Below are positions 23,407 through 46,570 of a stretch of DNA of 64,000 nucleotides, one piece after another. Origin of the DNA: Nitrosophilus alvini (GTDB taxonomy: Bacteria > Campylobacterota > Campylobacteria > Campylobacterales > Nitratiruptoraceae); contig NZ_AP022847.1 in assembly GCF_015100395.1 (NCBI RefSeq), positions 1,056,501 through 1,120,500 on the forward strand, given 5' to 3'. Under the pieces are notes generated by a model. The model saw only the letters and a list, made by a program, of their open reading frames with translations, made no database searches and had not been told where the DNA came from. A program made the position numbers and the translations under genes. How positions within the stretch are numbered: the stretch's first letter is position 1; the number at the start of each line of letters is the position of its first letter.

Positions 23407-23431
23407 AAACAGCACCTGTTCGGTGCTGTTT
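23407..23431. terminator. bidirectional terminator
   Basis: AAACAGCACC (23407-23416) and GGTGCTGTTT (23422-23431) form a perfect 10-bp stem with loop TGTTC, directly after the barrel-gene stop and touching the stop codon of the convergent activator gene. The A/T ends give a short U-tract in both directions. It marks the downstream boundary of the 23-kb minus-strand island. Confidence 0.85.
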
Positions 23432-24249
23432 CAAACTGCATCTGCATTTTTCAACTCATATTCCCAAGCCTCTTTCGCAAGCAGTGCGGCACCTAAAGCA
23501 GTGGTTATCTGAGGATAACGTGGAATAGCAAGCTCACGCCCAAGCTCATCTTCTATGGCAGAAACCAGCCCTTTGTTTAAAGCGGGACCTCCGTCAAAAT
23601 AGATAACTTCATTCAGCCCCACCCGTTTTGCCAGACGTATGATTCTTTTCGCAATAGAGAAATGGATACCGGCAACAATATCTTCTTTTGTATGTTCATT
23701 TCCCAAAAGTCCTATTATTTCCGACTCTGCAAATACAGCACATGTACTGTTTATGGAGAGTGGTGTCCCGATGGATCTGAAATGATAATCGCCCAACTCT
23801 TCTACATCAATTTCAAGTTTTGCAGCGGCAACATCCAAAAACTTGCCCGTTCCGGCAGCACATCTGTCGTTCATTGCAAAATTGACAACGTTTCCGTGTT
23901 CATCAAGAGCAATGGCTTTTGAGTCCTGACCGCCGATATTGATTATTGTTCTGATAGTTCCGAACTCTTCCCCGGCTTTTCTGGCACCGACTGCATTTGC
24001 GGTAATCTCGCTTATTGTCTCATCAGCTTCCTTAAAAAGTTTTCTTCCGTATCCCGTCGAAGTTATATATGCCACATCCTGGGAAGAGATTCCTATATCT
24101 TTGAGAAGCAGTTCAAAACTCTCTTTTGCATATTTGTAAAACATACTTCCGCTGCCTGATACTTTATACCCTTTTATGATCTCATTTTCATCTATTACAA
24201 CTATCTTTATGGCAGTCGATCCTATATCAATTCCTGCAAAATAGACCAT
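23431..24249 (-). CDS. ATP-dependent activator of 2-hydroxyacyl-CoA-dehydratase-family protein (BadF/HgdC type)
   Basis: This 272-residue ASKHA-fold ATPase would transfer electrons from a subunit-bridging [4Fe-4S] cluster to its partner on ATP hydrolysis. The phosphate loop GIDIGSTAIKIVVID is at the N-terminus, IGGQDSKAI lies near 107, and the cluster cysteines sit in NDRCAAGTGKFLD near 129 and NSTCAVFAESEIIGLLG near 167; the nucleotide motif FDGGPALNKGL follows near 219. It overlaps the upstream partner gene by one base (TAATG), showing a dedicated pair. It is the last gene of the TonB-receptor operon. Acyl-CoA chemistry is not implied by the context. Confidence 0.9.
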   Translation of the reverse strand: MVYFAGIDIGSTAIKIVVIDENEIIKGYKVSGSGSMFYKYAKESFELLLKDIGISSQDVAYITSTGYGRKLFKEADETISEITANAVGARKAGEEFGTIRTIINIGGQDSKAIALDEHGNVVNFAMNDRCAAGTGKFLDVAAAKLEIDVEELGDYHFRSIGTPLSINSTCAVFAESEIIGLLGNEHTKEDIVAGIHFSIAKRIIRLAKRVGLNEVIYFDGGPALNKGLVSAIEDELGRELAIPRYPQITTALGAALLAKEAWEYELKNADAV

Positions 24250-25553
24250 TATCTTTTTCTCCTTCTGACTTTCAAAGATTCTATGAATGCTTCTACTCTC
24301 GTTGAAAGTTGCCCGCCCTGCCCGGGGCTGTAGTCGGTTTCCACATAAAGCATCGGTATGTTGATTTTTTCCATCTCCTGCATAATGCTTCTTTGTTCCA
24401 TCTCATATACCTGACATCCGGCAAAAGACTGATATACCACCCCGTCAACGCAATACTCTTCAATAAGCTCTCTGAGTCTTCTTTTTCTATCTTCATTTTT
24501 TGTAAATATGGGGCATGTACAACCCTTGAGATACCTATCTGCAATGGCATCAACCATATCATACATAAACCACTCGTCAACCGAAACCATATCATTTAAA
24601 AGCCTGTTTGCTGAGCAGCTCTCATCAGCCACTATTATGCCGTCAGCCTCCTCTATCATTACCGGAAGTTTGAGATTTGGGAAAATGGGAGGAGAACCGG
24701 TATACAAAATCCTGGGCGACCTTTTTCCGGCTGCATTAAAACCGCTTTGAACTCTCTTTTTGACCTCCTCGTAGACATTTTCCACCGCCTCTGTCCAGCG
24801 CTCTATCTCATCGAAGAAAAATGCATTGGTTATAAGAAACATATCTTTTCCGAGTATCGGAGATGGAGTGACTCTTCTTAGCTCATTCAGCTTATGATAA
24901 GCCATCTGGGCTCTTCCAACTTTTCTGATAGCCTCTTTCAAAGATCTCCTGCTCACTTTTCTGCCAAGCTCTTTTGAGATATCTTTTGTAAACTTTCTGA
25001 CTGTCCTCCTCCAATACTCTCTGCTCTCTTCGCTCTCTTTTACTCTTGGAAACTCCATATGATACATATCGTAACTCATATCCTCTATAATGGATATAGC
25101 CTTTGTTTTCTGATCGCAAGTGGTAGGATGAACAATGATATCGAGTTTGTCAGCAGCAGGAATATCTCTGCTCTGAAGCATTCCAAGCGTAGCTTTGACC
25201 AGTGAACAGGACTTGGTGGGCATAAATTCTCCACCAAGCTGCTCGTCGGTATGAAACCCGTTACAAAGTCTCACCGGCACAGCATCCATTGCATAGATAA
25301 TCTCATAGGGAACCTGTATACATAAAGTACCTACAAGCGGCTTATCGCTGTGAATCTTTTCACCTTTGCAGTAGACCCTCTCGTAAAGATCGTAAAAATA
25401 TTTCATAGATTCCAAAGAGTGTGGAAAATCGTATTTCAGCTTATCCAGCATCTGGACGGCTTCCATAGCCTCATGCCTACTATGCCTTTTTTGCGGATCT
25501 TCGATCTCTCTTTTTCTTTGAACAGCAGTATTTGTTTCAATTTTTCTCATCAT
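24249..25553 (-). CDS. 2-hydroxyacyl-CoA dehydratase family, single-subunit double-cubane (DCCP/YjiM)-like protein
   Basis: This 434-residue iron-sulfur protein carries the family cysteines in VGTLCIQVPYEI near 78, VRLCNGFHTDE near 97, MPTKSCSLVKATLG near 115, HPTTCDQKTKA near 146, ADESCSANRL near 314, LKGCTCPIF near 345, EYCVDGVV and SFAGCQVYEME near 375. It has no separate alpha/beta partner, and its C-terminus has ETDYSPGQGGQLSTRVEAFIESL. This pattern resembles single-subunit proteins such as E. coli YjiM and the double-cubane cluster protein of Carboxydothermus, which reduce small molecules with their ATP-driven activator. No CoA-pathway gene is nearby. The gene overlaps the polyferredoxin gene upstream by 17 bases. 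Confidence 0.82.
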   Translation of the reverse strand: MMRKIETNTAVQRKREIEDPQKRHSRHEAMEAVQMLDKLKYDFPHSLESMKYFYDLYERVYCKGEKIHSDKPLVGTLCIQVPYEIIYAMDAVPVRLCNGFHTDEQLGGEFMPTKSCSLVKATLGMLQSRDIPAADKLDIIVHPTTCDQKTKAISIIEDMSYDMYHMEFPRVKESEESREYWRRTVRKFTKDISKELGRKVSRRSLKEAIRKVGRAQMAYHKLNELRRVTPSPILGKDMFLITNAFFFDEIERWTEAVENVYEEVKKRVQSGFNAAGKRSPRILYTGSPPIFPNLKLPVMIEEADGIIVADESCSANRLLNDMVSVDEWFMYDMVDAIADRYLKGCTCPIFTKNEDRKRRLRELIEEYCVDGVVYQSFAGCQVYEMEQRSIMQEMEKINIPMLYVETDYSPGQGGQLSTRVEAFIESLKVRRRKR

Positions 25554-26508
25554 CTATCCCCATTCTTTTGGCAAAGCCCCCTTTTGTAGATTTGAAAATC
25601 GTCCATTTTACAATATCCACCTTCAAAGCATCCTCCTCGGGACATGCCGCAACGCATTTCATACAGAATATGCAGTCATCTCTCAAAATATTTCTGCTAT
25701 CCACATCATCGGCTATATCTTTTATCTGCATATCGCAGACCCTGTAACAGTCCCCGCACCTGGTACACTTTTCACCATCTTTTTTCAGTTTCAGAAACGC
25801 AAACGGACTGAAAATATAGTGCATCGCACTCATCGGACAAAAAAAGCAGAAAAATCTCTTTTTTATAAATGAGCCCACAAAAAACAGTGCAGTAAAAACG
25901 ATACCGAAAGCGGTGAGGAAAACAGCCGTTTTGGATGAAAAATCGATAGCCCACTGGCTAAAATCACCAACAAACATCGGCGTTATGATCCTTCCGGGAC
26001 ACATCTTGCAAAAAGCGGCTCTCCATTCCGTATCAAGAAGACCCGCACCTATCAGTAACGGAAAAATTATCACAATAACAAGAAATATATATTTTATTTT
26101 CTTCAGAGATTCAAACTGCGTTTGGCTGTATCTTCCATAAGGTATAGCCAACTTTTTTCTTATAGCGGTTATCCAGTCCTGCATAGTACCAAGGGGACAT
26201 ACATATCCGCACCAGGCCTTGTTGAATATGATAAACCAGAGCAAAAAGACTAGAAAACTTGTCAAAACACCTATACTTGCAGCACTGAAAAGCCTCTCCC
26301 AAGGTCTTGCCAACTGATGCTGAAGAGGCATAAAATAGCACATTCCACCTGTTTTATCATTGTAGCCGCAAGAAAAGACCGGTATCTCTCTGCCAAGGTC
26401 TATAGCCAGATATCCGCCGTAAATAAAGAGTACAAACGTAAGCAGTTGTATCCAGAACCTGAATTTGCGGATATCCGACCGATTTATGAAATATTTAATC
26501 CTGCTCAT
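25537..26508 (-). CDS. NapH/CcoG-like membrane polyferredoxin
   Basis: This 323-residue inner-membrane electron-transfer protein has about five helices. It carries two membrane-linked cysteine motifs of the NapH/NosR/FixG family (CGYVCPLGTMQDW near 117 and FFCFFCPMSAMHYIF near 226) and two classical 4Fe-4S ferredoxin motifs at the C-terminus (CTRCGDCYRVCDMQ near 250 and CIFCMKCVAACPEEDA near 280). A periplasmic loop contains FSCGYNDKTGGMCYF. It overlaps both neighbours (the large polyferredoxin by 14 bases, the double-cubane-like gene by 17), so the four proteins are probably made together. Likely role: passing electrons from the quinone pool or the larger polyferredoxin toward the cytoplasmic activator; this is inference. 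Confidence 0.85.
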   Translation of the reverse strand: MSRIKYFINRSDIRKFRFWIQLLTFVLFIYGGYLAIDLGREIPVFSCGYNDKTGGMCYFMPLQHQLARPWERLFSAASIGVLTSFLVFLLWFIIFNKAWCGYVCPLGTMQDWITAIRKKLAIPYGRYSQTQFESLKKIKYIFLVIVIIFPLLIGAGLLDTEWRAAFCKMCPGRIITPMFVGDFSQWAIDFSSKTAVFLTAFGIVFTALFFVGSFIKKRFFCFFCPMSAMHYIFSPFAFLKLKKDGEKCTRCGDCYRVCDMQIKDIADDVDSRNILRDDCIFCMKCVAACPEEDALKVDIVKWTIFKSTKGGFAKRMGIDDEKN

Positions 26509-28804
26509 CTATTTTTACCTCTTTGAACGGCTTTTGGGTTCTGTATCTGTATACAAAAATCCCGGCACTTGCTGCGATTAGAATTATGATAGCTGTCAAA
26601 AGCCCGTAGGCATATGACTGATACTCATTTCTTGAGGGAGAATATGTACCTATATAGGTTGTCTCATACTCTTTTCCCTCTTCCTCAAAACTCGCAACTA
26701 CAATAAATTTTTCCCTGAATCTTTTATTGTATTTTTCCCAATCGGGGTAGTAATCTTTTATGAGTTTGAACTTCGCTATACCGTTTTCGTCACTCTTTTG
26801 GCTTTTTTGCCAGCCAAACTGCGTCACGAGTACCACTTTGGCCCCTTCAAGCGGTCTGCCATCTTTCAAAACCATGAATTTCACCTCTTCGCCGGTATGA
26901 AGTCTGGAATAAAAAGTTTCATTTTCTGGGCGCAGCCTCAAAATATCAAAGGGAACCTCTTTTATCGTTTTTGCCGCCATCTTTTTCTTGTCGTAAACCG
27001 CGTGTGAGCTGTGATCGAATCTTTTAAATTCGTATTTGGCTACTTTTATATACTCTTTTCGAGGAGTTTTTATATCCTGCAGATAATAGACGCTGTAGTA
27101 ACCGCTTTTAGGCATTTCAAAACTGACACTTATGCATCCTCTTTTTTTCGGCTCCACCTCTTTTACGACACCTTCGGTATCTACAGTATAGAAAGTCCCT
27201 TTAGGATTGATTACGCATTTTGGCTTGCCAAGCTCACCTGTAACAAGCCAGACTCTTCTTTTGGGAACCGCGTTTGGAACACGTCTGCCCATCATACCCA
27301 TTCTTCTGCTACCGGGCAGTCTGTCTTTAAACCAGACGCTCTGCTCGGGTAAAACGGCCACTTTCTCAATGTTTTTGGAGTTTTTCTTCATCATCATTGC
27401 CGCACTGCCCGTGTGATGACCGCGCGGCTTTCTGCCATATGTCTCTATAACATAGTCTCTGTATAGATTTACACCCACAAAGAAGATTATAAGAAGTGCC
27501 GCGAAAGGATATGCAATGACTTTTCTGACTTTGTCTGTTTCAATAAAAGCCATTCTTTTATAAAGTATAAAAAGAGCCCAAAAAACAGCAATCCATCTAA
27601 ACAGATGAAAAATCTGCAGCCATCTATCTCCTCTTTTCGCCAAAGGCTCCACATCTACATCGAACCCAAATCCCCAAGCAAGCCCTTCAACTATTCTTTC
27701 ATAATTGCCTGTAAAGAAAAACTCAAGAGCATGACCCATGGAAGCAAAGATAAAAAGAGGCGCAAATGCGTATCCCAGTGTATAAAAGACACTGCCGAAA
27801 TCTTTTTTCACTATTTTGGAGGCTATCCACATACCGATCACTGCTGCTGCGATGGTAAAAAGCGCAGCATATAAAAAGGCAAACATACCTGTGGCATCAA
27901 GTTTGCCAAAATCCACAAACTGTTTGAAAAATTCGGCCGTCTTTGCCCATATAAAATGATCGGAAATATTGCTTCTGCCAAGACCGTGATGAAATGCCAT
28001 GGAGATAGGAATAGCTGCCAAAATAAGTATATATACCCAGACTTCAGCTTTGAGAGTTTTGAATCTGTTATAAAGAGAAAATCCCGGTTTTACAAATCTG
28101 AAATTGATAGCTTCGCAAGAATGCGTACACTCCATACAGAGAGTACAATCGCTTATAGAGTTTTTTTTGTCGAAATTGAAAGGACTCAGACCATAAGGGC
28201 AAGTTTTTGCACAATCGAACGTTTTACACGATTTGCAGGCACTCTCATACGAACCGAACCATGTAAAAGAGAGCTTGCCGAAAGCTCTGAGTGCCGTACC
28301 GATAGGACATATGTATTTGCAATAACTCATATCTTTATAGAGAAAATAGATGAAAAACGCCAAAACAGTCATTACACTAAAGAGTATCGCGCTTCCAAGA
28401 GGAGTTCTGTAGACTCCCGGAAACATGTAGTAAACTCCCCACCATCCCAAAAAAAGCAGCATAATACCGATAAATCTGTTTTCAAGCCATTTTGGCATCT
28501 TTTTTTTGAGCCCTGCTTTAGTGATATATTTTCCCAAAAAACCGTGTGGGCATATACCGCAGAATATTCTGCCGAAAGTCGGCAGAGTGGTAACTATAAA
28601 AAGAGGCCAAAAAATCCCCCAAAACACGGCAGTGGTAAAAATATTGTTTTTTGAAGAGTCTGCATATCCCATATAGATTGCGTAGAAAAAAAGCGCAGCA
28701 ACAGATATACGCAAAACCAAAAGGAATTTTTGATTTTTAAATAAAAACCTTAAAATCGGCATTTTGAAGATATCGTTATTGTCGCGTTTAATAAATCTGA
28801 CCAT
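26495..28804 (-). CDS. large NosR-like polyferredoxin fused to a C-terminal Ig-like (DUF4198-type) domain
   Basis: This is a 769-residue membrane protein. Residues about 20-470 hold around ten helices with FixG/NosR motifs FCGICPHGFLGKY near 81 and YCKYICPIGTALR near 162. A cytoplasmic cluster region follows: CKSCKTFDCAKTCPYGL near 190 and CTLCMECTHSCEAINF near 220. It lacks the N-terminal FMN domain of NosR. Instead a C-terminal periplasmic part (about 480-735) includes GRKPRGHHTGSAAMMMKK and RRMGMMGRR, rich in His and Met, then GEEVKFMVLKDGRPLEGAKV, a DUF4198/carboxypeptidase-regulatory-like beta domain seen in metal-uptake proteins, and a last helix. A metal-reducing or metal-handling role is a reasonable guess. 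Confidence 0.8.
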   Translation of the reverse strand: MVRFIKRDNNDIFKMPILRFLFKNQKFLLVLRISVAALFFYAIYMGYADSSKNNIFTTAVFWGIFWPLFIVTTLPTFGRIFCGICPHGFLGKYITKAGLKKKMPKWLENRFIGIMLLFLGWWGVYYMFPGVYRTPLGSAILFSVMTVLAFFIYFLYKDMSYCKYICPIGTALRAFGKLSFTWFGSYESACKSCKTFDCAKTCPYGLSPFNFDKKNSISDCTLCMECTHSCEAINFRFVKPGFSLYNRFKTLKAEVWVYILILAAIPISMAFHHGLGRSNISDHFIWAKTAEFFKQFVDFGKLDATGMFAFLYAALFTIAAAVIGMWIASKIVKKDFGSVFYTLGYAFAPLFIFASMGHALEFFFTGNYERIVEGLAWGFGFDVDVEPLAKRGDRWLQIFHLFRWIAVFWALFILYKRMAFIETDKVRKVIAYPFAALLIIFFVGVNLYRDYVIETYGRKPRGHHTGSAAMMMKKNSKNIEKVAVLPEQSVWFKDRLPGSRRMGMMGRRVPNAVPKRRVWLVTGELGKPKCVINPKGTFYTVDTEGVVKEVEPKKRGCISVSFEMPKSGYYSVYYLQDIKTPRKEYIKVAKYEFKRFDHSSHAVYDKKKMAAKTIKEVPFDILRLRPENETFYSRLHTGEEVKFMVLKDGRPLEGAKVVLVTQFGWQKSQKSDENGIAKFKLIKDYYPDWEKYNKRFREKFIVVASFEEEGKEYETTYIGTYSPSRNEYQSYAYGLLTAIIILIAASAGIFVYRYRTQKPFKEVKIDEQD

Positions 28805-28815: not shown

Positions 28816-29478
28816 TTATAGTTTCAATATGCCAAGCAGCACCATAACGCCTCCCGCAAAAAGCAGAGCCGAAGCAGCTGTTTCTATCCACTTTTTCTGT
28901 CTGGAAAATTGAAAAAGAAGCTCTTTGGTTATAGACGAGAGAATAAATCCGTAAAAAATAAAAGAGACCATAACAGCGCCTATCCCGAACAAAAATCCGT
29001 AAAAAAGAGAAACTACCTTTGAAGAACTGCCGGCACTGAACGCAGCAAGACTTAAAACTGGCGCACAAAAATTAAAAGAGAGTGCTGCACCCATAAAAAA
29101 ATATCCGCCTTTTCCAAGCCTGTTTATACCTTTTGAAAAGTTCCGTGCAACACAACAGCTTTTTTCTCTTTGAAACTGTGTATAAAAGAGATATAAAGCC
29201 GTTAAGATCATAAGCACTCCCATAACTCTCCCCCAAAGCAGCGGCTCATTCAAAATCTCCTTGACGGTAAGCGAGGCATAAGAGGCACTGAGTGCTATCA
29301 TCGAATATGAAAATACTCGGCCTGCACTGAATATCCCTACAGTCGTCATAGATTGTTTCAAGGTTGATGAATTACTCACAAGCAGAGGACTCAAAAGCGG
29401 CGCGCAGGACAACATACAAGCCGTCGAACCGTATGAAAGTCCCATAAGAAAAACTGTTATATACGCAGCCGCTTCCAA
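28816..29478 (-). CDS. SafE/UreH-CcdA-like membrane protein
   Basis: This 220-residue protein has about six helices in two inverted halves. Each half begins with a Cys-Ala-Pro motif: ACMLSCAPLLSPL (near 25) and NFCAPVLSLAAFSAG (near 137). This matches the DsbD/CcdA-like superfamily (often labelled sulfite exporter TauE/SafE or UreH-like), where two membrane cysteines relay reducing equivalents across the membrane. A further pair, SCCVARN, lies in the central loop. It sits 11 bases upstream of the large polyferredoxin and 14 bases after the TonB receptor, so it belongs to the same operon and may supply thiol-based reductant to a periplasmic partner. Confidence 0.75.
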   Translation of the reverse strand: MEAAAYITVFLMGLSYGSTACMLSCAPLLSPLLVSNSSTLKQSMTTVGIFSAGRVFSYSMIALSASYASLTVKEILNEPLLWGRVMGVLMILTALYLFYTQFQREKSCCVARNFSKGINRLGKGGYFFMGAALSFNFCAPVLSLAAFSAGSSSKVVSLFYGFLFGIGAVMVSFIFYGFILSSITKELLFQFSRQKKWIETAASALLFAGGVMVLLGILKL

Positions 29479-29492: not shown

Positions 29493-31673
29493 TTAAAATC
29501 TGTATTTCATACCTACATAATAGACCCTTCCCGGATCAACCGTAATGGATGCGTCTTCCGCATCCAATCTGCCGTCACCACTTTTGTCACTATAAAGGTA
29601 GACTGTTCTGTAATATTGATTGTCAAAGAAGTTATCCACTCTTGCAAAAAACTCAAAATCGTTTCCATTGATTTTTGTATTGTATCTTGCCTGAAGATTC
29701 AAGACACCGTATGAAGGCATTTTTACAAAATTTGTTTCATCTGCATAATAGCTTGACTGCCAATACCATTCGGGAATCAACGTCCACTTAGGCGACATCT
29801 TTATATAGGTAAAAAGATCGATTTTATGATGTGGTGTTCTTGGAAGCTGGTTTCCGTCAATATCATACGTTTCATCTCCTGTTGATCTATATATAGGATC
29901 CAAGTCTACTGTAAAAGGCAGATGTGACGTATAGTATGCATCCAGGTATGTATATGCCAGATCAAAGGCGAGCTTTTTGCTTCTATCACTCTTTACAGAG
30001 AATTCCAGCCCTCTGCTTCTTGCGTCACCCACATTGTCAAAATATACATTCGAACCGTTTGAATAGTAGGTACCTCCGTTTCTGGCTATAATATCTTTGG
30101 TATCAAGCTGATACAATGTAACCTCATATTCAAATTTGTTATTTTTCAGGTGGCGTGTGCCTCTGATACCTATTTCATAGTTTATCGTAGTTTCGGTATC
30201 GATATCAGGATTGTTTTGAGAATATCTGTCTGGATCAAAATCGTACGCATACAACTCATATATACGAGGATTTCTGAAACCGGTGGAAATATTTGTATAA
30301 AGAGTGTTGTCAGCATTCAACTGATAAGTTGCACCTACTCTGTATGAAACGTTTCTAAAAGAATCATCCCTAGTTATATTTGAAAGCGTCCACACAGTCC
30401 CGTCAAAATCGTAACTCTCTGATGCATATTCATATTTGTCATAATCATATCTGGCATTGGCTACAATTGTCCATTTCGGGTTTAGTTTATACTTAACTTC
30501 TCCGTACAATCCATATCTGTCTTCTGTACTGTCAGAATCGGTCCATTCACCAGTATAATATGTCTTACCTCTGCTTGTATAAGTTTTTGTAGTTAAATCA
30601 TAAGATTTCAGTTCTCTTTGACCGATATCTAACCCTACCATATAGGCAAGATTGTCTATATTGGCTCTATATTCGCTTTTTATACCTTTTTGATATATAT
30701 CGTCACTGCTGTCTCTCGTATATGTATCTTCAAATCCGTCGCCGTTGAGATCCTGAGGAGAAGCTTCAAAATCGTACAGGTCCACATAATAGTAGGTATT
30801 TACCATCAAATTTGCGCCGTTGTCGAAGTCTTTGTTGTAAGTTATAAAATATTTGTCTATGTCGGAATAGTAGTCATGGTTCCATGGCAGATCTGCATCA
30901 TCTTTGCCGGTAGGATTTGTTTCGGCAGCCGTTACTCCGGTAACACTTCCTCTTGAACTCTCCTCATATTTTCTTGTAACATCTACGCCGACTGTTATGT
31001 CACTCATCTCATCAATAAAATATGTAAATTTTCCACTTGCGGATTTTGTCCAGTTTTCACTCATATCCCAGTATCCACCGGTATATCTGTAACTTGCTAT
31101 CACATTTGCAGCGTATTGATCCGTACTTTTATATGCAGTAGCTTTATAGTTTTGATACGCATAACTTCCGTATTCGGCTTCTACAGATACTTCATTTCTG
31201 TTTTTCGGTTTTTTGGTTGTAATGATTACAGCACCTGCCAATGCATTGGGACCGTACAGATATGAAGCTCCCCCTTTTATCACTTTGATGCTCTCAATCT
31301 CATCAAGATTAAACTTAACCTTACCTCCGTTTTGAAGTACAGGTACGCCATCAATAACTATCGCAACACCGGTATCTTCCCACATAAACTCCTGCTGTGC
31401 AACGCCTCTCATATGGATCTCAACAACATCGCCATTTCTTACATCCGCTGTAATACCTGGAACGGTACGCAAAATTTCATTGATGTTTTTCGCATCTATT
31501 ATCTCTATCTTTTTCTCATCTATAACATTTACAGTCGAAACTTCCGTTTTCGGATCAGTAAATATATCCTCAATGGTAGAAGACTCGACCACTACACTGT
31601 CCAAAACTATCTCCTCTGCTGCCGCAAGCGAAGAGAACAGTGCCAAACCTGCTAGTAAAAGAGTTCTTTTCAT
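29493..31673 (-). CDS. TonB-dependent outer-membrane receptor
   Basis: This is a 726-residue receptor with signal peptide MKRTLLLAGLALFSSLAAA, a TonB-box-like start EEIVLDSVVVES, a plug domain (about 40-155, INEILRTVPGITADVRNGDVVEIHMRG and IESIKVIKGGASYLYGPNALAGAVIITTKK), and a 22-strand barrel ending MKYRF. Two short Ca-binding-like loops, DLNGDGFEDT near 320 and DKSGDGRLDAED near 700, lie in the barrel. It imports a ligand too large for porins using TonB energy; ligand unknown. It is the first gene of the operon leading to the polyferredoxins and double-cubane-like reductase. A GTTAA-N6-GTTAA box lies 43 bases upstream of the start. Confidence 0.92.
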   Translation of the reverse strand: MKRTLLLAGLALFSSLAAAEEIVLDSVVVESSTIEDIFTDPKTEVSTVNVIDEKKIEIIDAKNINEILRTVPGITADVRNGDVVEIHMRGVAQQEFMWEDTGVAIVIDGVPVLQNGGKVKFNLDEIESIKVIKGGASYLYGPNALAGAVIITTKKPKNRNEVSVEAEYGSYAYQNYKATAYKSTDQYAANVIASYRYTGGYWDMSENWTKSASGKFTYFIDEMSDITVGVDVTRKYEESSRGSVTGVTAAETNPTGKDDADLPWNHDYYSDIDKYFITYNKDFDNGANLMVNTYYYVDLYDFEASPQDLNGDGFEDTYTRDSSDDIYQKGIKSEYRANIDNLAYMVGLDIGQRELKSYDLTTKTYTSRGKTYYTGEWTDSDSTEDRYGLYGEVKYKLNPKWTIVANARYDYDKYEYASESYDFDGTVWTLSNITRDDSFRNVSYRVGATYQLNADNTLYTNISTGFRNPRIYELYAYDFDPDRYSQNNPDIDTETTINYEIGIRGTRHLKNNKFEYEVTLYQLDTKDIIARNGGTYYSNGSNVYFDNVGDARSRGLEFSVKSDRSKKLAFDLAYTYLDAYYTSHLPFTVDLDPIYRSTGDETYDIDGNQLPRTPHHKIDLFTYIKMSPKWTLIPEWYWQSSYYADETNFVKMPSYGVLNLQARYNTKINGNDFEFFARVDNFFDNQYYRTVYLYSDKSGDGRLDAEDASITVDPGRVYYVGMKYRF

Positions 31674-38240: not shown

Positions 38241-38263
38241 AAACACTCCTTCGATATTTCGTT

Positions 38264-38295
38264 ATCTTATACTTTCAATGTTAATAAAACGTTAA
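38264..38295 (-). promoter_or_regulatory. direct-repeat regulator box B and -10 for the cytochrome c/RND unit
   Basis: GTTAA at 38280-38284 and 38291-38295 on the + strand is an 11-base direct repeat, 40 bases upstream of the cytochrome start codon. On the minus strand TAAGAT (38269-38264) lies 15 bases after the proximal TTAAC, matching the spacing at boxes A and C. Confidence 0.6.
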
Positions 38296-38928: not shown

Positions 38929-39843
38929 CTAAAATCTATAGTCCAAAGAGGCCCCGAGAGTTGTCATATATGAATCTTCACCGTTTTCGGTATCGGTAAA
39001 TTTTTCATAATATATACCCGCACTCAACCCCAGCTCTTTTGAGTATGAGTATCTTGTTTGCAGCGCCGCACCGCCTTTATGAATTTCTGCAAGATTGTAA
39101 ACAGTAAATCCGCCGTCTCTAACGCCAAATGCCTGCTTCCCAATCCAAACGGAAGCTTTTGTGGTAAATTTGCCGTAGTAGTTGGCCAAATTGAATTCAA
39201 AAGAGTTATAACTGTCTGTATACTCTTCAGACCTCTGAATAATATGTGTCGATTTTTTGCCCATTGCACTCATACCCGAACTTTGATTTACAACGGTCTG
39301 AGTTATTTTGCTGCTTTTGAATGTAATATAGTTATATTTTCCTTCAACATAAAAGTCACCGTAACTACACCCTTTTATATATTTGCCAAAACTCGGTGAA
39401 AACTGCCATACACCCAAAGATGGATCGAAGTTGTCGTAGTGAGTATAGAAAACATCTATTCCCGCATCAAAATCAAATGCCTGAAAATATTTTAAACCGC
39501 CAAACAGTATATAACCGCCATCTGTAAGATAATCATCCGAATCGATAAAATGTAGTCCCGCTCTTGCAAGATAGTTATCATCAAAATAGTTTGTATAAAC
39601 TGCGGTAAAATCATTTTGTTCCAAATCAGGCTCATCATTTTTATATTTGACTTTCAGATATTCATACTGAAGTTCAACTTTTTGCAAATCAAACTCTTTG
39701 CTTACATATACTCCACCAAAATATCCATTATCTTTGACACTTTTGCTGCCATAATCAAGATATCCTGCAAAAGGAACTACACTTATATTTTCCCCTGCTA
39801 ATGCAGCTATTGCTATGAGGGACAAACTTGCAATTTTTTTCAT
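38929..39843 (-). CDS. outer-membrane beta-barrel protein in the PqqD/ATP-grasp operon
   Basis: This 304-residue protein has a signal peptide (MKKIASLSLIAIAALA, then GENISVVPFAGYLDYG), many amphipathic strands ending in aromatic residues, and the C-terminal BAM signature ending LDYRF. It is therefore a barrel of perhaps 12-14 strands. No known porin family could be recognised. Its start overlaps the stop of the urea-transporter/M23 gene by 4 bases, so the two are probably co-translated. It could be the outer-membrane gate for whatever this operon handles. Confidence 0.75.
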   Translation of the reverse strand: MKKIASLSLIAIAALAGENISVVPFAGYLDYGSKSVKDNGYFGGVYVSKEFDLQKVELQYEYLKVKYKNDEPDLEQNDFTAVYTNYFDDNYLARAGLHFIDSDDYLTDGGYILFGGLKYFQAFDFDAGIDVFYTHYDNFDPSLGVWQFSPSFGKYIKGCSYGDFYVEGKYNYITFKSSKITQTVVNQSSGMSAMGKKSTHIIQRSEEYTDSYNSFEFNLANYYGKFTTKASVWIGKQAFGVRDGGFTVYNLAEIHKGGAALQTRYSYSKELGLSAGIYYEKFTDTENGEDSYMTTLGASLDYRF

Positions 39844-41933
39844 TTTTTTCTCCTTATAATCAAGTTTTCAACTTTTATGGTATCAAACCCGTGTGTTTTA
39901 TCTATAACAGTGAGTACTGATATTTGTCTGTTTCCTATATTTATTGTTCCTTTTATATCATCACCGTTTTTTTCCCATACTCCCTTATAAAGAAAAGGTT
40001 TGCTACAAATTGAAGCCAAGAACATCAAAAAATCTTTTTTAAATCCTTCATAAACTATACGAGGCGTCAAAAAGTCTTCCCATTTAACCCTCTCTTTTCC
40101 TATAAGAGCAATTCTTGGAATCGCCATAAAAAATTTCTTCAGATAGCTTCTATCTTTGCCAGTATAATCATAAAAATAGAAAATACCGTACTCTTTGGCA
40201 AAAAATAGCTTGTTTTTTTCCGGATCTTCAAAAAAGAATCTGCCGCTAAATCTATCCATAGCCACTCTCAAAGTAAACTCATCTATCTTTTTTTCATCTT
40301 TAAAAACTTCATAACTGCATCTGCTTTCCAAAACAAAACTAAATCTAGTATCCAAAGATTTATCAGCAGCAAAACTAGAAATCTCGTCACCTTTGAGAGG
40401 TCTTTGATAAAAACATACCTCATCTTTTTTTAAATAAGCTACAAAGTTGAAAGGAATTGTTTTGCTTCCTAGATACATATTTTCCTGAACCTGAATATGT
40501 ATATGCGGTTCTGGAGAGTATCCGCTGTTGCCGCAAAGACCAATTATCTGTCCTGCTTCTACAAAATCTCCTTTTTTAACCTTGAGAGAATCTTTCGCAA
40601 GATGAGAAATTTCCACATAAACCCCTGAAGGTGTAGATAATATCAGATAGTTTCCCCAGTTATTTATGTTGTCTACCTCTCCTATAGGCTGATCAGGAAA
40701 ATCATCTGCGGCCTCAACTACATATCCGCTTACAGGGGACAATACAGGCTTTTTGAAAGCATAATAATCATCAAGTCGCAACCCTTCATTCTTATATGTT
40801 TTCCCATCTTTATCACGTATAACAAAGTCATAGGCGTATTTCCACTTTCCCTGATGTGTCCATACATCATCAAAAGCCTGATATACACTCCATTTTCCGG
40901 AAAAAGGCAAAAATATGCTTTTTTCGTTTGATTTGAATCTGAATAGACTTAAAAGAAAATAGCTGAGACTGTTTTCCGGTGTCTTTTTAATAACATACGC
41001 AAACTCTCTAAATCTCACTAGCCTCAGTACAAACAGAAAACTTATAACGGTAATGTTAAAAGGAAGCGTAAATACCGGTATCTTGTAAAGTGTCCAGAAT
41101 ATTGCCGTTGCATCTACCAGTAAAACAGAAATACTTACTCCAAGAAGCGCCAACAAATAGCTTCTAATCCCGGGAATCAAAAAAATCGAACCCAGTGCCA
41201 CGGCAACTAAAATATAATTGAACGCGTAAGGGTTTAAGAGAGACTGTATATACGAACCGCTTAGCTGGCTGTGGACAAAAACTCCGAAATAAAAGCCCGC
41301 TATTGTCATAATAGCCATAATTCTAGAGTGCAAAACAATCAGTAAAAAGATAAAAATTCCAGCCCAGATATTTGGCATAAACAAAATAGTACCTAGGGAT
41401 TTAAAATAGGCTTCACACCATACCGGTATATTTAATCCAGAGTTCAGTAAAAAAGAGTGACTGTAAAGCGTTTCGACAAAAAGATTTGAGTAATTAAGCG
41501 TCGAAAGATAAACAATAGAGCTGACTATCGCAAAAGGAAAAGAGAGAATCGGTATCAGATATATTGAAAAAAGTGTATGCAAAATGATAGTGATAAGAAA
41601 AGTTAGAACCGATGCCACAGCTATCAAAAACAGAGACATAAAGGTCAGTTTAAATAAAAATCCTATACTCATACCGACTAAAAGAGGATTGTATATATAA
41701 AAACCGCTTTCAAGATAATCGGGATCCATCCTTATAAGTGCCGCAAAAAAAAGAGCGAAAAGAACACCCAAAAGACCGCTCAATGCTACATTGGGATTTA
41801 TAAACGAAGCTATCAACAAAAGCAGACCGACTTTTTTGCTCTCTATAAACAGAACTTCTGCATAGCTTGATATTACAGATGATATATAAGGCTTCAGTAT
41901 TTCAAAAGTTTGATTCGCTTTTTTAACTGCCAA
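39840..41933 (-). CDS. urea-transporter-like membrane domain fused to an M23 (LytM-like) peptidase domain
   Basis: This is a 697-residue two-part protein. Residues about 1-320 hold around ten helices with urea-transporter features (VLFIESKKVGLLLLIASFINPNVALSGLLG near 27, YIYNPLLVGMSIGFLF near 78, NIPVWCEAYFKSLG near 172). Residues about 345-510 form an M23 metallopeptidase fold: THQGKWKYAYDFVI carries the first His/Asp, PVLSPVSGYVVEA is the core strand, SHLAKDSLKVKKGDFVEAGQIIGLCGNSG is the lipoyl-like part, and PHIHIQV is the HxH motif. The remaining 185 residues are beta-rich and unassigned. If the zinc residues are used, it would cut a peptide or peptidoglycan bond. It follows the PLP decarboxylase by 10 bases. 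Confidence 0.85.
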   Translation of the reverse strand: MAVKKANQTFEILKPYISSVISSYAEVLFIESKKVGLLLLIASFINPNVALSGLLGVLFALFFAALIRMDPDYLESGFYIYNPLLVGMSIGFLFKLTFMSLFLIAVASVLTFLITIILHTLFSIYLIPILSFPFAIVSSIVYLSTLNYSNLFVETLYSHSFLLNSGLNIPVWCEAYFKSLGTILFMPNIWAGIFIFLLIVLHSRIMAIMTIAGFYFGVFVHSQLSGSYIQSLLNPYAFNYILVAVALGSIFLIPGIRSYLLALLGVSISVLLVDATAIFWTLYKIPVFTLPFNITVISFLFVLRLVRFREFAYVIKKTPENSLSYFLLSLFRFKSNEKSIFLPFSGKWSVYQAFDDVWTHQGKWKYAYDFVIRDKDGKTYKNEGLRLDDYYAFKKPVLSPVSGYVVEAADDFPDQPIGEVDNINNWGNYLILSTPSGVYVEISHLAKDSLKVKKGDFVEAGQIIGLCGNSGYSPEPHIHIQVQENMYLGSKTIPFNFVAYLKKDEVCFYQRPLKGDEISSFAADKSLDTRFSFVLESRCSYEVFKDEKKIDEFTLRVAMDRFSGRFFFEDPEKNKLFFAKEYGIFYFYDYTGKDRSYLKKFFMAIPRIALIGKERVKWEDFLTPRIVYEGFKKDFLMFLASICSKPFLYKGVWEKNGDDIKGTINIGNRQISVLTVIDKTHGFDTIKVENLIIRRKK

Positions 41934-41943: not shown

Positions 41944-43293
41944 TTATTTGAGTTCCAGTTTTTTTGGCAATATTTCTCTTCTTTCTATATCACTCAAATC
42001 CTCTTTTTCTCTTATTATCTCCACACTCCCGTTCTCCATTACCATCAAAACTCTGGGTCTGTATCTGATAAACTGCATCCACTGGGTCACATTATATGCA
42101 CCGACAGGTGATATAACCAGTTTGTCGCCTCGTTTGAGTCTCGGCAAAAGTATGGAATCCTCTATAATGTCTATATTCATACAAAGCGGCCCGTTGATAG
42201 TGGCAGGCTCGCTTATTCCGCTGATTTCACGGGTCAGTTCAATATTGAATTTATACCAAAAATAGGTATATAGAAGATTTACGCCGGCATCGACTATATA
42301 GCTTCTTCTCGAATCAGGAAGTGTTTTGCTGGCAACTACGGAAGTTACCAAAAAACCTGCTTCATCTATCAAATGCCTGCCGGTTTCAAGATATAGCTTC
42401 GGATAACTGCTGCCTTTTATATTTTCATACAGAGCCGAGGTTATAGCTTCTGCATAGTCGTCTATGGAAGGAACAACAACTTCGGGAGGCTGATAGATGC
42501 CTTTCAAATGGTTTTTGGATGCAAACCCACCTCCTACATCGATATACTCGATGGAAAAACCCACCTTCTCCTCTATCTCGTTCATGAGTTGTACCATTTT
42601 GGCGGTTTCTACTTTATAGGCATTGGCATCCAGCATAAAGGTACCTATATGTGCATGAAGTCCATTGAGCCTTAGTTTTCCGCCAGCTTTTATACGCTTG
42701 ACCGCATCCATCGCCTGGCCGCTTTCAATATTGAAACCGAATCTGCTCCATTGCGGGTAGATACCTGTATCCATATTTAATCTAATTGCTACTGGTATCT
42801 CCATACCAAGTTCAACCGCCACTTTTTCAAGATCATTGATCTCATCAAATGTATCTATATGAATTTTTGCACCCTCTTTTGCGGCGGTTATCAGAGAGTC
42901 ATAAGGCTTATATGGTCCGTTGTAGATAATGTCTTTGCCTTCAATTCCAAGTTCCCTGGCTTTTTCATATTCAAACTCGCTGACAACTTCGGCTATAGCG
43001 CCTTCCTGATGAAAAACGGCACATATGGCTTTGAGATAATTTGTTTTGTAACTCCATCCAAATTGCACATTGGGATATCTACTCGAAAAAGCTTCATAAG
43101 CCCCGCGATATTTTTCTCTGATGGCTTTCTCATCAAAAATAAAAAGAGGAGAGCCAAATTTTTCTACCATCTCATCAATACTCACACCGCCTATCGTTTT
43201 TCTTATCTTCTGTTTGGGCATAGGAACACCAGCTTTACTAAAACCGCTTTCGATTTTTATAATAGTTGGTTTTTCATACGGTTTTTTAGCCAT
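41944..43293 (-). CDS. PLP-dependent fold-type III decarboxylase (ornithine/diaminopimelate family)
   Basis: This 449-residue alanine-racemase-fold enzyme has the PLP lysine in FGWSYKTNYL near 84 and HAHIGTF near 214. The phosphate-binding glycine loop DVGGGFASKN lies near 250. ETGRHLIDEAGFL falls near 304, and GPLCMNIDIIEDS near 370 supplies the second-subunit cysteine. GAYNVTQWMQF comes later. It probably decarboxylates an amino acid or an amino-acid conjugate, but substrate cannot be told; the genuine arginine decarboxylase speA is elsewhere in the window. AAGGAG at six bases supports the ATG at 43293 rather than an upstream TTG. It overlaps the ATP-grasp stop by 8 bases. Confidence 0.88.
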   Translation of the reverse strand: MAKKPYEKPTIIKIESGFSKAGVPMPKQKIRKTIGGVSIDEMVEKFGSPLFIFDEKAIREKYRGAYEAFSSRYPNVQFGWSYKTNYLKAICAVFHQEGAIAEVVSEFEYEKARELGIEGKDIIYNGPYKPYDSLITAAKEGAKIHIDTFDEINDLEKVAVELGMEIPVAIRLNMDTGIYPQWSRFGFNIESGQAMDAVKRIKAGGKLRLNGLHAHIGTFMLDANAYKVETAKMVQLMNEIEEKVGFSIEYIDVGGGFASKNHLKGIYQPPEVVVPSIDDYAEAITSALYENIKGSSYPKLYLETGRHLIDEAGFLVTSVVASKTLPDSRRSYIVDAGVNLLYTYFWYKFNIELTREISGISEPATINGPLCMNIDIIEDSILLPRLKRGDKLVISPVGAYNVTQWMQFIRYRPRVLMVMENGSVEIIREKEDLSDIERREILPKKLELK

Positions 43294-44317
43294 CACTCTC
43301 TCCTTTTGTCGCAAGGGTGCTCAGTTTTTCTATATCCGTTATCATCTCATATGTATATCTCACCATCATCTTTCCTGCTTTGTAGTCGCTGTTTGTATCC
43401 GTACTTTTATCAAACATCTCTTCTAGTACCCTTTTTGGAAGATTCACACCAACAGCTGTAGCAAAATAGACCCATGCAGGAAATCTAGGATTTATCTCTA
43501 TCATTATTATTTCATCACCATCCACTATGCATTCAAGTTCGAACGGTCCTTTCCATTTGTATTGCTTTACGAAATTCTCAGCAGTTTTTAAAAGTTTATC
43601 ATGCTTTATAGTTACACCGTTCCATATTTTTCCGAGATTTGTGGTTGTCATCTTTTTTATGGCCACAAGTCCAAGGACTCCACCCTTACCGTCACCTGCA
43701 CCTATAACATTTAGTTCTTCGCCGCTTACAATCTCCTGAACAAGTATAGGAAACCCCCATTCGTTTGAGATTTCGGTAAAGTAGTAGACCGCTTCGGGTA
43801 GTGACTTTGCTTTGTATGCTTTGTAATAGTTGCCTTTTACAATACAGGGAAGCCCTATCTCTTTTACAGCCTTCGTTAACTGATCGACAGTAAAGACTTT
43901 TTTCGTTTCAGGATAGGTTATAGAAATTTTTTTGCTAACCTCTTGCAAATTCTCTTTGCTTCTAAGCTCAAACTGTTCGAGTGAGGGGAGAAAAGTTTTG
44001 ATACCGGCCTCTTCCAGATCATTTTGGTATTTGATATACTGTGGAAGCTCTGCATCAAGCGTGGGTATAACGACATCGAGTCCGTAACTTTCCTTTATAT
44101 AAAGAAGCCTGTTGAATATCGGCTCCCACCCCTGTGTGGGAAATGATAAAATGTAGCTTTTGTCTATCACAAAATCCATATAGTTTCCCGGATCTTGCAC
44201 ATCATAACTTAGTCCCACCGTCTTTATAGAAGGATCGGCTTCTTTGAGACTTCTGGCGACACCTATACCGGGACCAGGATTATCCGTATCGTTAATACCG
44301 CTTACAGCTACAATCAT
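43286..44317 (-). CDS. ATP-grasp ligase, carbamoyl-phosphate-synthetase-like
   Basis: This 343-residue enzyme has an N-terminal pre-ATP-grasp Rossmann part (MIVAVSGINDTDNPGPGIGVARSL), a central ATP-binding region (GLPCIVKGNYYKAYKAKS near 155, FPILVQEIVSGEELNVIGAGDG near 190) and the metal-binding tail FELECIVDGDEIIMIEINPRFPAW near 268. ATP-grasp enzymes join a carboxylate to an amine or thiol through an acyl-phosphate. It overlaps the PqqD-like gene upstream by 4 bases and the PLP decarboxylase downstream by 8, so a three-enzyme biosynthetic unit is likely. Product unknown; peptide-like or siderophore-like condensation is possible. Confidence 0.88.
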   Translation of the reverse strand: MIVAVSGINDTDNPGPGIGVARSLKEADPSIKTVGLSYDVQDPGNYMDFVIDKSYILSFPTQGWEPIFNRLLYIKESYGLDVVIPTLDAELPQYIKYQNDLEEAGIKTFLPSLEQFELRSKENLQEVSKKISITYPETKKVFTVDQLTKAVKEIGLPCIVKGNYYKAYKAKSLPEAVYYFTEISNEWGFPILVQEIVSGEELNVIGAGDGKGGVLGLVAIKKMTTTNLGKIWNGVTIKHDKLLKTAENFVKQYKWKGPFELECIVDGDEIIMIEINPRFPAWVYFATAVGVNLPKRVLEEMFDKSTDTNSDYKAGKMMVRYTYEMITDIEKLSTLATKGESDG

Positions 44318-44550
44318 GACAAAAGTCCGTAAAGTTTCAGTTTCTCTTTAAAATCCAGAACATCATTGAAGGCCTCTTCTTCACTCACATCGTACTCACG
44401 GGCAATTTTGTCTGCTATAGATTTTTCGTCCATTCCCTTGGACAGAGACTCTATTATCTCTTTTGCGGTTTCATTGACAGTAAAACTCTCTCCCGTAGTA
44501 GGGTCGAAAGCGAAACCGTTTTGATTTATTGCCAGATTTTGCACTCTCAT
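44314..44550 (-). CDS. PqqD-like small protein (possible peptide-recognition element)
   Basis: This is a 78-residue protein with the PqqD/RRE pattern: short N-terminal strands (GFAFDPTTGESFTVNETAKEI), then three helices (IIESLSKGMDEKSIADKIAREYD, SEEEAFNDVLDFKEKLKLYGLL). In RiPP pathways this fold binds a leader peptide and presents it to a modifying enzyme; other PqqD-like proteins have no known peptide. Its stop overlaps the ATP-grasp start by 4 bases. A SD-like AGAAGGAGG lies just upstream of the ATG, and a direct-repeat box lies 37 bases upstream. Being first in the operon next to an ATP-grasp enzyme makes a peptide or carrier substrate worth considering. Confidence 0.8.
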   Translation of the reverse strand: MRVQNLAINQNGFAFDPTTGESFTVNETAKEIIESLSKGMDEKSIADKIAREYDVSEEEAFNDVLDFKEKLKLYGLLS

Positions 44551-44570
44551 TATCGCCTCCTTCTAATAAA

Positions 44571-44608
44571 ATAATAGCTATAATTTGTTAACATACTGTT
44601 AAGTATGT
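44571..44608 (-). promoter_or_regulatory. direct-repeat regulator box C and -10 for the PqqD-headed operon
   Basis: GTTAA at 44587-44591 and 44598-44602 repeats at 11 bases. On the minus strand TATTAT (44576-44571) follows the proximal TTAAC by 15 bases. An overlapping perfect dyad ACATACT (44591-44597)/AGTATGT (44602-44608) lies in the same 83-bp divergent promoter, so the 68-residue gene on the + strand may share control. Confidence 0.6.
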
Positions 44609-44633
44609 AATAATTATAAAAAAGGAGTAGAGT

Positions 44634-44840: not shown

Positions 44841-44852
44841 TAAAAGGTTCAA

Positions 44853-45917
44853 TTAGGGAAAAGAGAGCATAACAACGGTACCAAAATTTTTTTTGGATTC
44901 CGCCTCGATTTCTATATCCATTGCATCACATAAAGTTTTGACTATATGCAGTCCTATCCCACTGCCGCTTTTTTGCTCTTTATAATACCTTTTAAATATC
45001 AAATCGACATTTTCAATACCTTTGCCTGTATCCTTGATATAAAGAGTTCTGTTTTTTGTCCAGATTTTTACAGAACCGCCCTCTACATTATATTTACAGG
45101 CATTTGTAAGTAAATTGTGAAGTATCTGTTTTATAGCGGCACTGTTTACTTTCACTTCAAAACTTTTGCACTCTACACTTATTTTTATATTCCTGAATTT
45201 CAATGAATACTCTTCTGCCATCTCTTTTATCAAAGGGCATATATCTATTTTTTCCATTTTGAATGTTTTTTCTTCCAGCAAAATATTTAAATTTTTATAT
45301 AAAGATGCTATCTCCTTTGTGCTTGTCTCAATTCTTGAGAGCTCCTTTTTACCCTTGCACAAAGGATCTTTTTTCAAAAGTTTTATATTTAAAAGAATCG
45401 ACGTTACAGGAGTGTTCAGATCATGTATAAGATCTTTTGCAAACCAGTCCAGACGTTTTATGGTCTCTTGCATAGGCTTTAATGAGAGTTTTGAAAGGTA
45501 GAAACTTATCACACCAAAAAGAAAAAGCAAAGAAAATTCGACGACAATTATCTTTAATAGAAGCTTTTTTATGTTTTCGTCAAACTCTTTTCTATCTTTT
45601 TTTATCAAAAGATACCCCAAATTGTTTCTGTTGGGTACAATTTTTTCAAAACAGCACTCTGTCAGTTTCAGATTTTGAGGATTGAAATTTTTTATCTCTT
45701 TTTTCAATATTTCATATGTAAACCCTTCTCTTTTATAGTTGAAGTTTGAAGTTTTCAACATTCTCGCATATAATATCATCGAAAACTGCTCTTTTGAAAT
45801 AAACGTCTCTTTTTGTTGTTGAAAATAAAAATATCCGGAAACGGTTATAAGTATCGCAACAGATGCAAAATAGATAGCAAAAAACTTCCAGAAAGCTTTT
45901 TTTTCATATGTTTTCAA
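44853..45917 (-). CDS. sensor histidine kinase
   Basis: This 354-residue inner-membrane kinase has two helices (about 10-29 and 120-140) enclosing a periplasmic sensor of roughly 90 residues that contains an adjacent cysteine pair (LTECCFEKIV). The kinase core has H-box DLIHDLNTPVTS near 168, N-box LHNLLTNACKYN near 270, G1 DTGKGIE near 298 and G2 GSGIGLHIVKTL near 320. Its ATG overlaps the stop of the response-regulator gene (4 bases). It lies directly upstream of the PqqD-headed operon, on the same strand. The stimulus is unknown; the cysteine pair makes metal or redox sensing conceivable. Confidence 0.92.
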   Translation of the reverse strand: MKTYEKKAFWKFFAIYFASVAILITVSGYFYFQQQKETFISKEQFSMILYARMLKTSNFNYKREGFTYEILKKEIKNFNPQNLKLTECCFEKIVPNRNNLGYLLIKKDRKEFDENIKKLLLKIIVVEFSLLFLFGVISFYLSKLSLKPMQETIKRLDWFAKDLIHDLNTPVTSILLNIKLLKKDPLCKGKKELSRIETSTKEIASLYKNLNILLEEKTFKMEKIDICPLIKEMAEEYSLKFRNIKISVECKSFEVKVNSAAIKQILHNLLTNACKYNVEGGSVKIWTKNRTLYIKDTGKGIENVDLIFKRYYKEQKSGSGIGLHIVKTLCDAMDIEIEAESKKNFGTVVMLSFP

Positions 45918-46570
45918 GCTTCCTCCTCAAGTCTGTATCCGATTCCTCTCATATTTTTTATATCAAACCCCGCTTTTCTCAGCTTGTTTATATGAACACG
46001 CAAAGCTTTTTCGCTTATCTCTTCACCTTCGGATATCTTCAAAGCAATCTCCTCTTTACTGATAGTTTTTCCTATATTTTGCAAAAAAACTTTCAACAGC
46101 TTCTTTTCGAATGGTGGCAGATGTATCGTTTCACCGTCTCTTTTAATCTCCTCTTTTTCTATATCGTAACTGATATTTCTGTATTTAATAATATTGCTGT
46201 GAGAATTGAAACTTTTTTTTATAAGAGCTTTGATTCTTATCAAAAGTTCATCAAAATCGAAAGGCTTTTTTATATAATCATCTGCTCCGGACTCAAATCC
46301 CTGCGATAAAGAGTTTATATCAGTAAGAGCCGTTATAAAAATAGCCGGCGTGCTGTTTCCGCTCTCTCTTAAATCTTTTAAAAGTTCGAAACCGTTGATA
46401 AAAGGCACTTTCACATCTAAAAGAAGCAGATCATACTCTTTTGCAAATGTCTCATCCAGCGCTTTTTCACCGTCTTTAACCCATGTAACATCAAAATTGT
46501 CCGCTTCCAGAAGCTCTTTTAGAGTCTCTCCCAGCGTCACATCATCTTCCACTAAAAGAAGTCTTTTCAT
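45914..46570 (-). CDS. OmpR/PhoB-family response regulator
   Basis: This 218-residue regulator has a receiver domain with acidic pocket VEDD near 8, phosphorylation site LLLLDVKVP (Asp near 51), FITA near 79 and IKKPF near 101. A winged-helix DNA-binding domain (about 125-218) follows, with LPPFEKKLLKVFLQNIGKTISKEEI and KALRVHINKLRKAGFDIKNMRGIGYRL. This class usually binds tandem direct repeats with a 10-11 bp period, which is what boxes A, B and C show. It is the natural candidate regulator for the island downstream. The kinase gene overlaps its stop. Confidence 0.93.
   Translation of the reverse strand: MKRLLLVEDDVTLGETLKELLEADNFDVTWVKDGEKALDETFAKEYDLLLLDVKVPFINGFELLKDLRESGNSTPAIFITALTDINSLSQGFESGADDYIKKPFDFDELLIRIKALIKKSFNSHSNIIKYRNISYDIEKEEIKRDGETIHLPPFEKKLLKVFLQNIGKTISKEEIALKISEGEEISEKALRVHINKLRKAGFDIKNMRGIGYRLEEEA

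Follow-up and report, generated by a model that had tools for sequence, protein, structure and literature searches.

A conserved operon joining a TonB-dependent receptor to a double-cubane-cluster reductase lies among three gene sets under one class of operator in Nitrosophilus alvini

The window analysed here is the whole stretch of 64,000 nucleotides from Nitrosophilus alvini contig NZ_AP022847.1 (positions 1,056,501 to 1,120,500); coordinates in nucleotides are those of the window, whereas positions in kb or Mb refer, unless another genome is named, to the host genome, a single contig of 1.81 Mb. Between 23431 and 46570, 18 minus-strand genes follow one another in overlapping or tightly spaced runs, from the gene of an ATP-dependent activase (23431–24249) to that of a response regulator (45914–46570). 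An initial annotation had divided this 23-kb stretch into three units, A, B and C, and its gene content, one-strand orientation and three-unit layout were borne out by the open reading frame positions and by verification of the domains with Pfam and NCBIfam. The units are set apart by gaps of 302 bp (histidine kinase gene to the PqqD-like gene of unit C), 53 bp (TPR gene of unit C to the cytochrome c gene of unit B) and 210 bp (RND permease gene of unit B to the receptor gene of unit A), and a copy of a shared box is present in every one of them. The stretch comprises three separate gene sets under the same class of control sequence, not one machine, and unit A is a conserved operon for uptake in which the gene of an outer-membrane receptor is combined with that of the double-cubane-cluster reductase (DCCP), an iron-sulfur enzyme driven by ATP.

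All genes of unit A lie on the minus strand. The first encodes the TonB-dependent outer-membrane receptor (TBDR; 29493–31673; PF00593, PF07715), which is recognised by the general plug and barrel families alone. A PqqU-type receptor was considered and rejected: although YncD/PqqU come nearest among solved structures, they match weakly, and higher scores were obtained with other models. There follow a CcdA/DsbD_2-like thiol electron carrier (28816–29478; PF13386, 63 bits), a membrane polyferredoxin with a periplasmic DUF4198 domain of metal-binding type, here called PFD (26495–28804; Fer4_5, DUF4198), and a second membrane polyferredoxin (25537–26508; Fer4_5, Fer4_10), which is NapH-like only, as it reaches 78.7 bits with the NapH/MauN model TIGR02163 against a cut-off of 213 bits. 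The last two genes encode DCCP (24249–25553; NF040772, 370.2 bits for a cut-off of 350) and its BadF/BcrAD-type ATP-dependent activase (23431–24249; PF01869, 190 bits; TIGR00241, 244 bits, above cut-off). The DCCP residues C78, C97, C116, C146, C313 and C380 align with cysteines of the solved DCCP 7yyl, and these six cluster cysteines are invariant in 13 homologues of the clade. From these family signatures, an [8Fe-9S] cluster and ATP-dependent reduction are predicted.

To what extent unit A is conserved was followed in a scan of named genomes with a DCCP alignment, which yielded 63 loci, many of them on contigs of metagenome-assembled genomes (MAGs). They belong to Hydrogenimonas, Sulfurimonas, Sulfurovum, Sulfuricurvum, Nitratifractor and Arcobacteraceae, and to two Bacteroidota MAGs that hold a reduced form, so that the named carriers are nearly all Campylobacterota. 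Among the 38 loci of at least 15 kb (the long loci), the genes of the activase, the NapH-like protein, the CcdA-like protein and the TBDR each accompany DCCP in 36 and that of PFD in 32; a stand-alone DUF4198-type protein is encoded in 11. The fullest operons (L121, L122, L125 and L173) have the co-directional order TBDR-ExbB-ExbD-CcdA-PFD-NapH-DCCP-activase-RND-TonB. An RND gene follows the activase gene in many loci, and a TolC-adaptor-RND set does so in close relatives (L018, L025). When 200 genomes of the order were searched with PFD (unit A), the adaptor (unit B), the UT-M23 protein of unit C described below and DCCP, and about 75 regions were mapped, 17 of the 200 had a unit-A-type DCCP in the same setting; the short contig of one of them (G058) shows only the activase, RND and ExbB genes. 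In a phylogenetic tree the cassette DCCPs form one clade with a support of 100/100, clearly separated from the order's remaining DCCPs (29–33% identical), whose gene neighbourhoods differ. No description of a DCCP-TonB cassette was found in the open-licence literature.

Several variants of the cassette were recorded. PepSY_TM reductase-family genes lie within or adjoin it in L153 and L155, and NosL-like neighbours occur in L017 and L147. In L046–L048, L142, L145 and L151 the cassette is duplicated, TBDR-DUF4198-NapH being followed by TBDR-DUF4198-NapH-DCCP-activase; in L046–L048 paired boxes stand ahead of each TBDR gene. A simpler form of the system is seen in L032 and L035–L037, where TBDR-PFD(-ExbB-ExbD-TonB) operons encode a shorter PFD without DUF4198 and lack DCCP, with the box present. 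The two Bacteroidota MAGs (L171, L174) have TBDR-PFD-like-NapH-DCCP-activase, directly behind alternative-complex-III-like genes in L171. A contig named as Bacteroidota (L152, a Petrimonas MAG) was placed among the Campylobacterota DCCPs and is probably mis-binned.

PFD is predicted to have ten transmembrane helices, with residues 448–732 in the periplasm. Its iron-sulfur motifs (C82, C85, C162, C166, C190–C202 and C220–C230) are all invariant and lie on the cytoplasmic side in the predicted topology, which puts H273 and H358 near the periplasmic face. In an AlphaFold model of moderate confidence (predicted local distance difference test, pLDDT, 77), the periplasmic part matches the fold of Zcp, solved with Zn, Co or Cu bound, and of a Ni-bound DUF4198 protein. 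The architecture resembles that of CcoG, but the modelled periplasmic domain is closer to Zcp/DUF4198 than to CcoG. About 14 of 48 PFDs carry an inserted NosL domain directly ahead of the periplasmic one (11 recognised by motif, L121 by Pfam, and L159 and L163 from length only).

The box found in the three gaps is a direct repeat, TTAACA-N5-TTAACA, read on the minus strand. Exact copies stand 41 nt ahead of the TBDR start (31715–31731), where the box is kept in relatives, and 35 nt ahead of the PqqD start (44586–44602), where degenerate copies occur in other families; a copy with one mismatch, TTAACG-N5-TTAACA (38279–38295), lies 38 nt ahead of the ATG of the cytochrome c gene. Exact copies number four in the 1.8-Mb genome, for about one expected by chance from base composition, and all four are correctly oriented, 35–46 nt ahead of a plausible start codon. 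They head the TBDR gene, the PqqD-like gene, an ExbB-ExbD operon right behind a second pair of response regulator and histidine kinase genes (1348.6–1350.1 kb), and the gene of a Spy/CpxP-like periplasmic protein (about 643.1–643.6 kb; L095). Over the whole genome, the number of one-mismatch boxes comes close to chance expectation (26, with 18 for a reversed control pattern), and their weight therefore rests on position: those ahead of the cytochrome c gene and of the gene of a Met-rich 103-aa protein (1341.8 kb; L113) have the spacing of the exact copies. A weakly NosL-like protein is encoded convergently to the Met-rich protein gene.

The same box was found at a fixed distance in relatives. 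With one mismatch allowed, it precedes 15 of 30 TBDR genes and 4 of 14 ExbB genes, as compared with 2 of 1076 other genes; with up to two mismatches, it precedes 9 of 19 PqqD-like and 3 of 4 cytochrome c genes, as compared with 10 of 1076. A second set of relatives gave 26 of 60 TBDR, 8 of 22 ExbB and 3 of 11 response regulator genes, for 1 of 337 others. Because the sets overlap in some genomes and contain related, hence non-independent, sequences, the p-values calculated for the first set overstate significance. These data indicate that co-regulation, which had been proposed on the basis of strand and spacing only, was correct in its outcome, the same operator class lying 35–41 nt before the start codon in all three units. 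The boxes of unit A are mainly TTAACA-CWWWW-TTAACA and those of unit C more often TTAAC[G/T]-TTTYR-TTAAC[C/T]; this slight difference between unit A and units B and C makes two related regulators possible. The candidate reader of the box is the OmpR-type response regulator (45914–46570, minus strand), encoded with a sensor histidine kinase (44853–45917, minus strand); both were identified by Pfam, and the pair adjoins unit C in three relatives. A scan for promoters and terminators found terminator-like sites no commoner than in shuffled sequences and promoter-like sites about 1.5 standard deviations commoner.

We then asked of the 200 genomes whether the units travel together. Units A, B and C co-occur in excess over the whole set, but the excess comes entirely from two families, f1 and f4. 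Among the 168 genomes outside these families, 7 contain only A of these two units, 21 contain only C, and no genome combines them. In one genome (G077, two contigs) the units are far apart (A, 541 kb; C, 852 kb; B, 1913 kb). In this genome the histidine kinase, decarboxylase, UT-M23 and TBDR genes (L054, L018) are each split by stops or frameshifts, by decay or assembly error. Unit B is present without A and C in seven genomes, and among those examined adjoins unit C only in the host and in G184 (L051). Since the units are unlinked and A and C never occur together outside f1 and f4, the single biosynthesis, export and re-import system of the initial annotation, which had named such independence as its own test, was rejected as a single pathway; the link it had drawn between import and reduction holds within the conserved cassette of unit A and does not extend to units B and C. 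The order of the genes is nonetheless beyond chance, because unit A (36 of 38 long loci) and unit C (more than 20 genomes) are each conserved.

Unit B, also on the minus strand, begins with a di-haem cytochrome c (37494–38246; two CxxCH motifs; PF00034, PF13442), followed by a TolC-type outer-membrane efflux protein (36108–37385; PF02321, 155 bits), an MFP adaptor (34966–36111; TIGR01730, 113 bits, above cut-off) and an HAE/MdtB-like RND permease (31884–34973; PF00873, 613 bits; nearest solved structure, MdtB). It would act as a tripartite RND pump with a cytochrome c.

Unit C (minus strand) has the order PqqD-ATP-grasp-decarboxylase-UT/M23-TPR-barrel in more than 20 genomes, often with an atypical response regulator inside; in operons of other families (L056:11812-12420, L067:11674-12252 and similar ones) the receiver domain of this OmpR-type regulator is degenerate or missing, and no kinase gene lies next to it. 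The PqqD-like small protein of peptide-binding type (44314–44550; PF05402, 52.7 bits) was aligned with its homologues (alignment of 20); a role as C-terminal carrier in the fashion of LysW was ruled out, as the C-terminus varies (YGLLS, YGLIQ, YGLI, YGLIDESGN). An unsystematic inspection of the sequence recognised no candidate precursor peptide gene ahead of PqqD. The carbamoyl-phosphate-synthase-like ATP-grasp ligase (43286–44317), with a conserved EINPR motif, is found in 15 of 298 high-quality genomes of the phylum. The fold-III pyridoxal-phosphate decarboxylase (41944–43314; TIGR01048, 230 bits) is on the side of N-citrylornithine decarboxylase, its best match in the PDB (7kh2); a further match is BtrK, whose substrate is an amino acid bound to a carrier, and the score with the FslC model stays below cut-off (NF041039, 241 against 500 bits).

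The next gene encodes UT-M23 (39840–41933; PF03253, PF01551), a urea-transporter-fold channel fused to an M23 zinc peptidase, with a beta domain at the C-terminal end. Structure comparison of its model (pLDDT 87) confirmed a complete urea-transporter fold and the M23 fold; the zinc ligands H360, D369, H477 and H479 are invariant in homologue alignments, and the E of GEVMF, a polar residue in a solved urea transporter, aligns with a T. Urea transporters have their ends in the cytoplasm, and this topology, with a positive stretch behind residue 303, would put the peptidase there as well, which would be an unusual location. UT-M23 identity is 70–74% between families f1 and f4 and about 45% elsewhere, which suggests exchange. 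The signal-like start and terminal F of the product of 38929–39843 suggest an outer-membrane beta-barrel; it has no Pfam match and is kept in unit C of relatives, as is the TPR protein (38300–38920; Pfam) in other families. A vibrioferrin-type siderophore pathway is unlikely, since no IucA/IucC-type NIS (nonribosomal-peptide-synthetase-independent siderophore) synthetase (PF04183) was found in the host genome, control genomes being positive. Unit C is an uncharacterised biosynthetic locus that is not needed by unit A. Its product is probably a small peptide or amino-acid-derived; that it arises by ligation and decarboxylation followed by trimming by the peptidase is a tentative suggestion. No paper on the UT-M23 fusion, or on the PqqD/ATP-grasp/decarboxylase set, was found in the open-licence literature. 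At the other end of the stretch, a 227-aa predicted outer-membrane protein without Pfam match is encoded on the plus strand (22723–23406), convergent to the activase gene and 24 bp from it.

We propose, with a probability of about 0.5, that unit A serves the TonB-dependent uptake of a transition-metal complex and its reductive release, units B and C being separate members of the same regulon. The TBDR, energised by the boxed ExbB-ExbD operon (1348.6 kb), would bring the complex into the periplasm, where the DUF4198 domain of PFD, together with the NosL domain in relatives, would bind the metal, presumably iron or copper. PFD and the NapH-like protein, with iron-sulfur motifs turned to the cytoplasm, would carry electrons across the inner membrane, with the CcdA-like protein as a thiol branch, and the metal would be reduced and released; DCCP and its ATP-driven activase might supply or boost low-potential electrons, and the ligand, once emptied, would be removed in relatives by an RND pump dedicated to this task. 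The freed ion would then be taken up from the periplasm. Among the genes of the conserved cassette, none for an ABC-type importer of the inner membrane was recognised, in keeping with release in the periplasm and subsequent uptake of the free ion. FeoAB-like genes, read by eye, are present in the host genome at about 1.122 Mb. The more specific idea that the unit A DCCP clade is an ATP-driven electron injector, passing cytosolic electrons through the membrane polyferredoxins to TonB-imported metal complexes in the periplasm, is possible, though we hold it to be rather doubtful.

Several observations weigh against the uptake and reductive release proposed for unit A. The metal is ambiguous: the best model for the TBDR is of siderophore type (TIGR01783) yet below cut-off (153.6 against 223.5 bits), while NosL points to copper, and Cu(II) could be reduced without ATP-driven electrons. 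DCCP, cytosolic by homology, may act on a substrate of its own. The nearest host relative (64%) of the unit-A-type RND lies about 107 kb away, so that the pump of unit B is a different one. Each of two paralogous regulators (45914–46570 and about 1349 kb) may control a set of its own. Finally, no Fur-box match was found in the promoter region searched ahead of the TBDR gene, and Fur control of unit A was rejected on that ground.

Alternatively, the three units may be unrelated genes that answer the same stress under an envelope- or metal-stress two-component system, without a common pathway. This is conceivable, although we would not expect it: the box also heads the Spy/CpxP-like and Met-rich protein genes elsewhere in the genome, and we take its hexamer-N5-hexamer layout to resemble the PmrA box, but the fixed internal order of unit A is left unexplained, and for units B and C this explanation is compatible with the uptake reading of unit A.

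Unit A might instead serve copper acquisition or homeostasis, PFD being a CcoG-like cupric reductase and the NosL and DUF4198 domains copper sites. The NosL insertion in PFDs, the NosL-like neighbours in L017 and L147, the fold match to Cu-bound Zcp and the precedent of CcoG (PMC7558416) all point this way. We nevertheless doubt it, as DUF4198 binds several metals, the TBDR was not matched to a copper-receptor model, and Cu(II) does not call for ATP-driven low-potential electrons.

It is unlikely that DCCP is the terminal enzyme, with an imported compound or organic ligand reduced in the cytoplasm and the polyferredoxins feeding electrons inward: the quinol potential is too high for DCCP reduction, the conserved cassette has no recognised ABC-kind inner-membrane importer, and PFD bears a periplasmic domain of metal-binding type. 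What speaks for it is the in vitro reduction by DCCPs of azide, hydrazine, acetylene and other small molecules (PMC11971306); the same paper, of 2025, describes the biological role of archetypal DCCPs as unknown. Lastly, a single system in which C supplies a metallophore or redox compound for export by B and for re-import and reduction by A is highly improbable, for against the adjacency of the units, their common box, their overall co-occurrence and a decarboxylase of conjugate type like N-citrylornithine decarboxylase stand the restriction of that excess to f1 and f4, the distances between units in relatives, the existence of B and C without A, the RND gene that A has of its own, and the lack of an NIS synthetase.

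The cassette ties a whole DCCP clade to a receptor, metal-type domains, polyferredoxins and an operator, and thereby offers testable substrates, partners and growth conditions. If the injector model were true, it would give the DCCP class a biological role and define a new kind of reductive nutrient uptake, in which cells could exploit complexes whose stability puts them beyond the reach of reductases driven by NAD(P)H or quinol. With unit C, the stretch holds another conserved locus, biosynthetic and apparently not described before, that is headed by a similar operator.

Both units have partial counterparts in known systems. Like FslC of rhizoferrin and BtrK of butirosin synthesis, unit C has a fold-III decarboxylase of the type that acts on conjugated or carrier-bound amino acids; it differs in the lack of an NIS synthetase and in its partners, a PqqD-like protein and UT-M23. 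Iron bound to pyoverdine undergoes periplasmic reduction, and a pump probably recycles the ligand; unit A resembles the FpvA/FpvGHJK/PvdRT-OpmQ system (PMC6954188) in its TonB receptor, proposed inner-membrane reductase and proposed tripartite recycling pump, but has polyferredoxins and DCCP in place of FpvG, an RND protein in place of PvdRT, and no known ligand. In Caulobacter, DUF4198 genes are Fur-repressed and one of them adjoins a TBDR gene (PMC3751524), as DUF4198 and receptor do in unit A; no DCCP or polyferredoxin is named there, and unit A has an OmpR-type box, not a Fur box. CcoG/RdxA, a cupric reductase of the membrane polyferredoxin type, has an Ig-like domain in the periplasm (PMC7558416) and resembles PFD in its build, whereas PFD has a DUF4198/Zcp-type domain instead of the CcoG C-domain and is linked to a TBDR and DCCP, not to a cbb3 oxidase. 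With the Carboxydothermus-type DCCP and its reductase, unit A has in common the enzyme and activase families and the cluster cysteines; its clade is, however, separate and set in a TonB cassette, and the distant Campylobacterota DCCPs examined are encoded in other places, with no such cassette around them.

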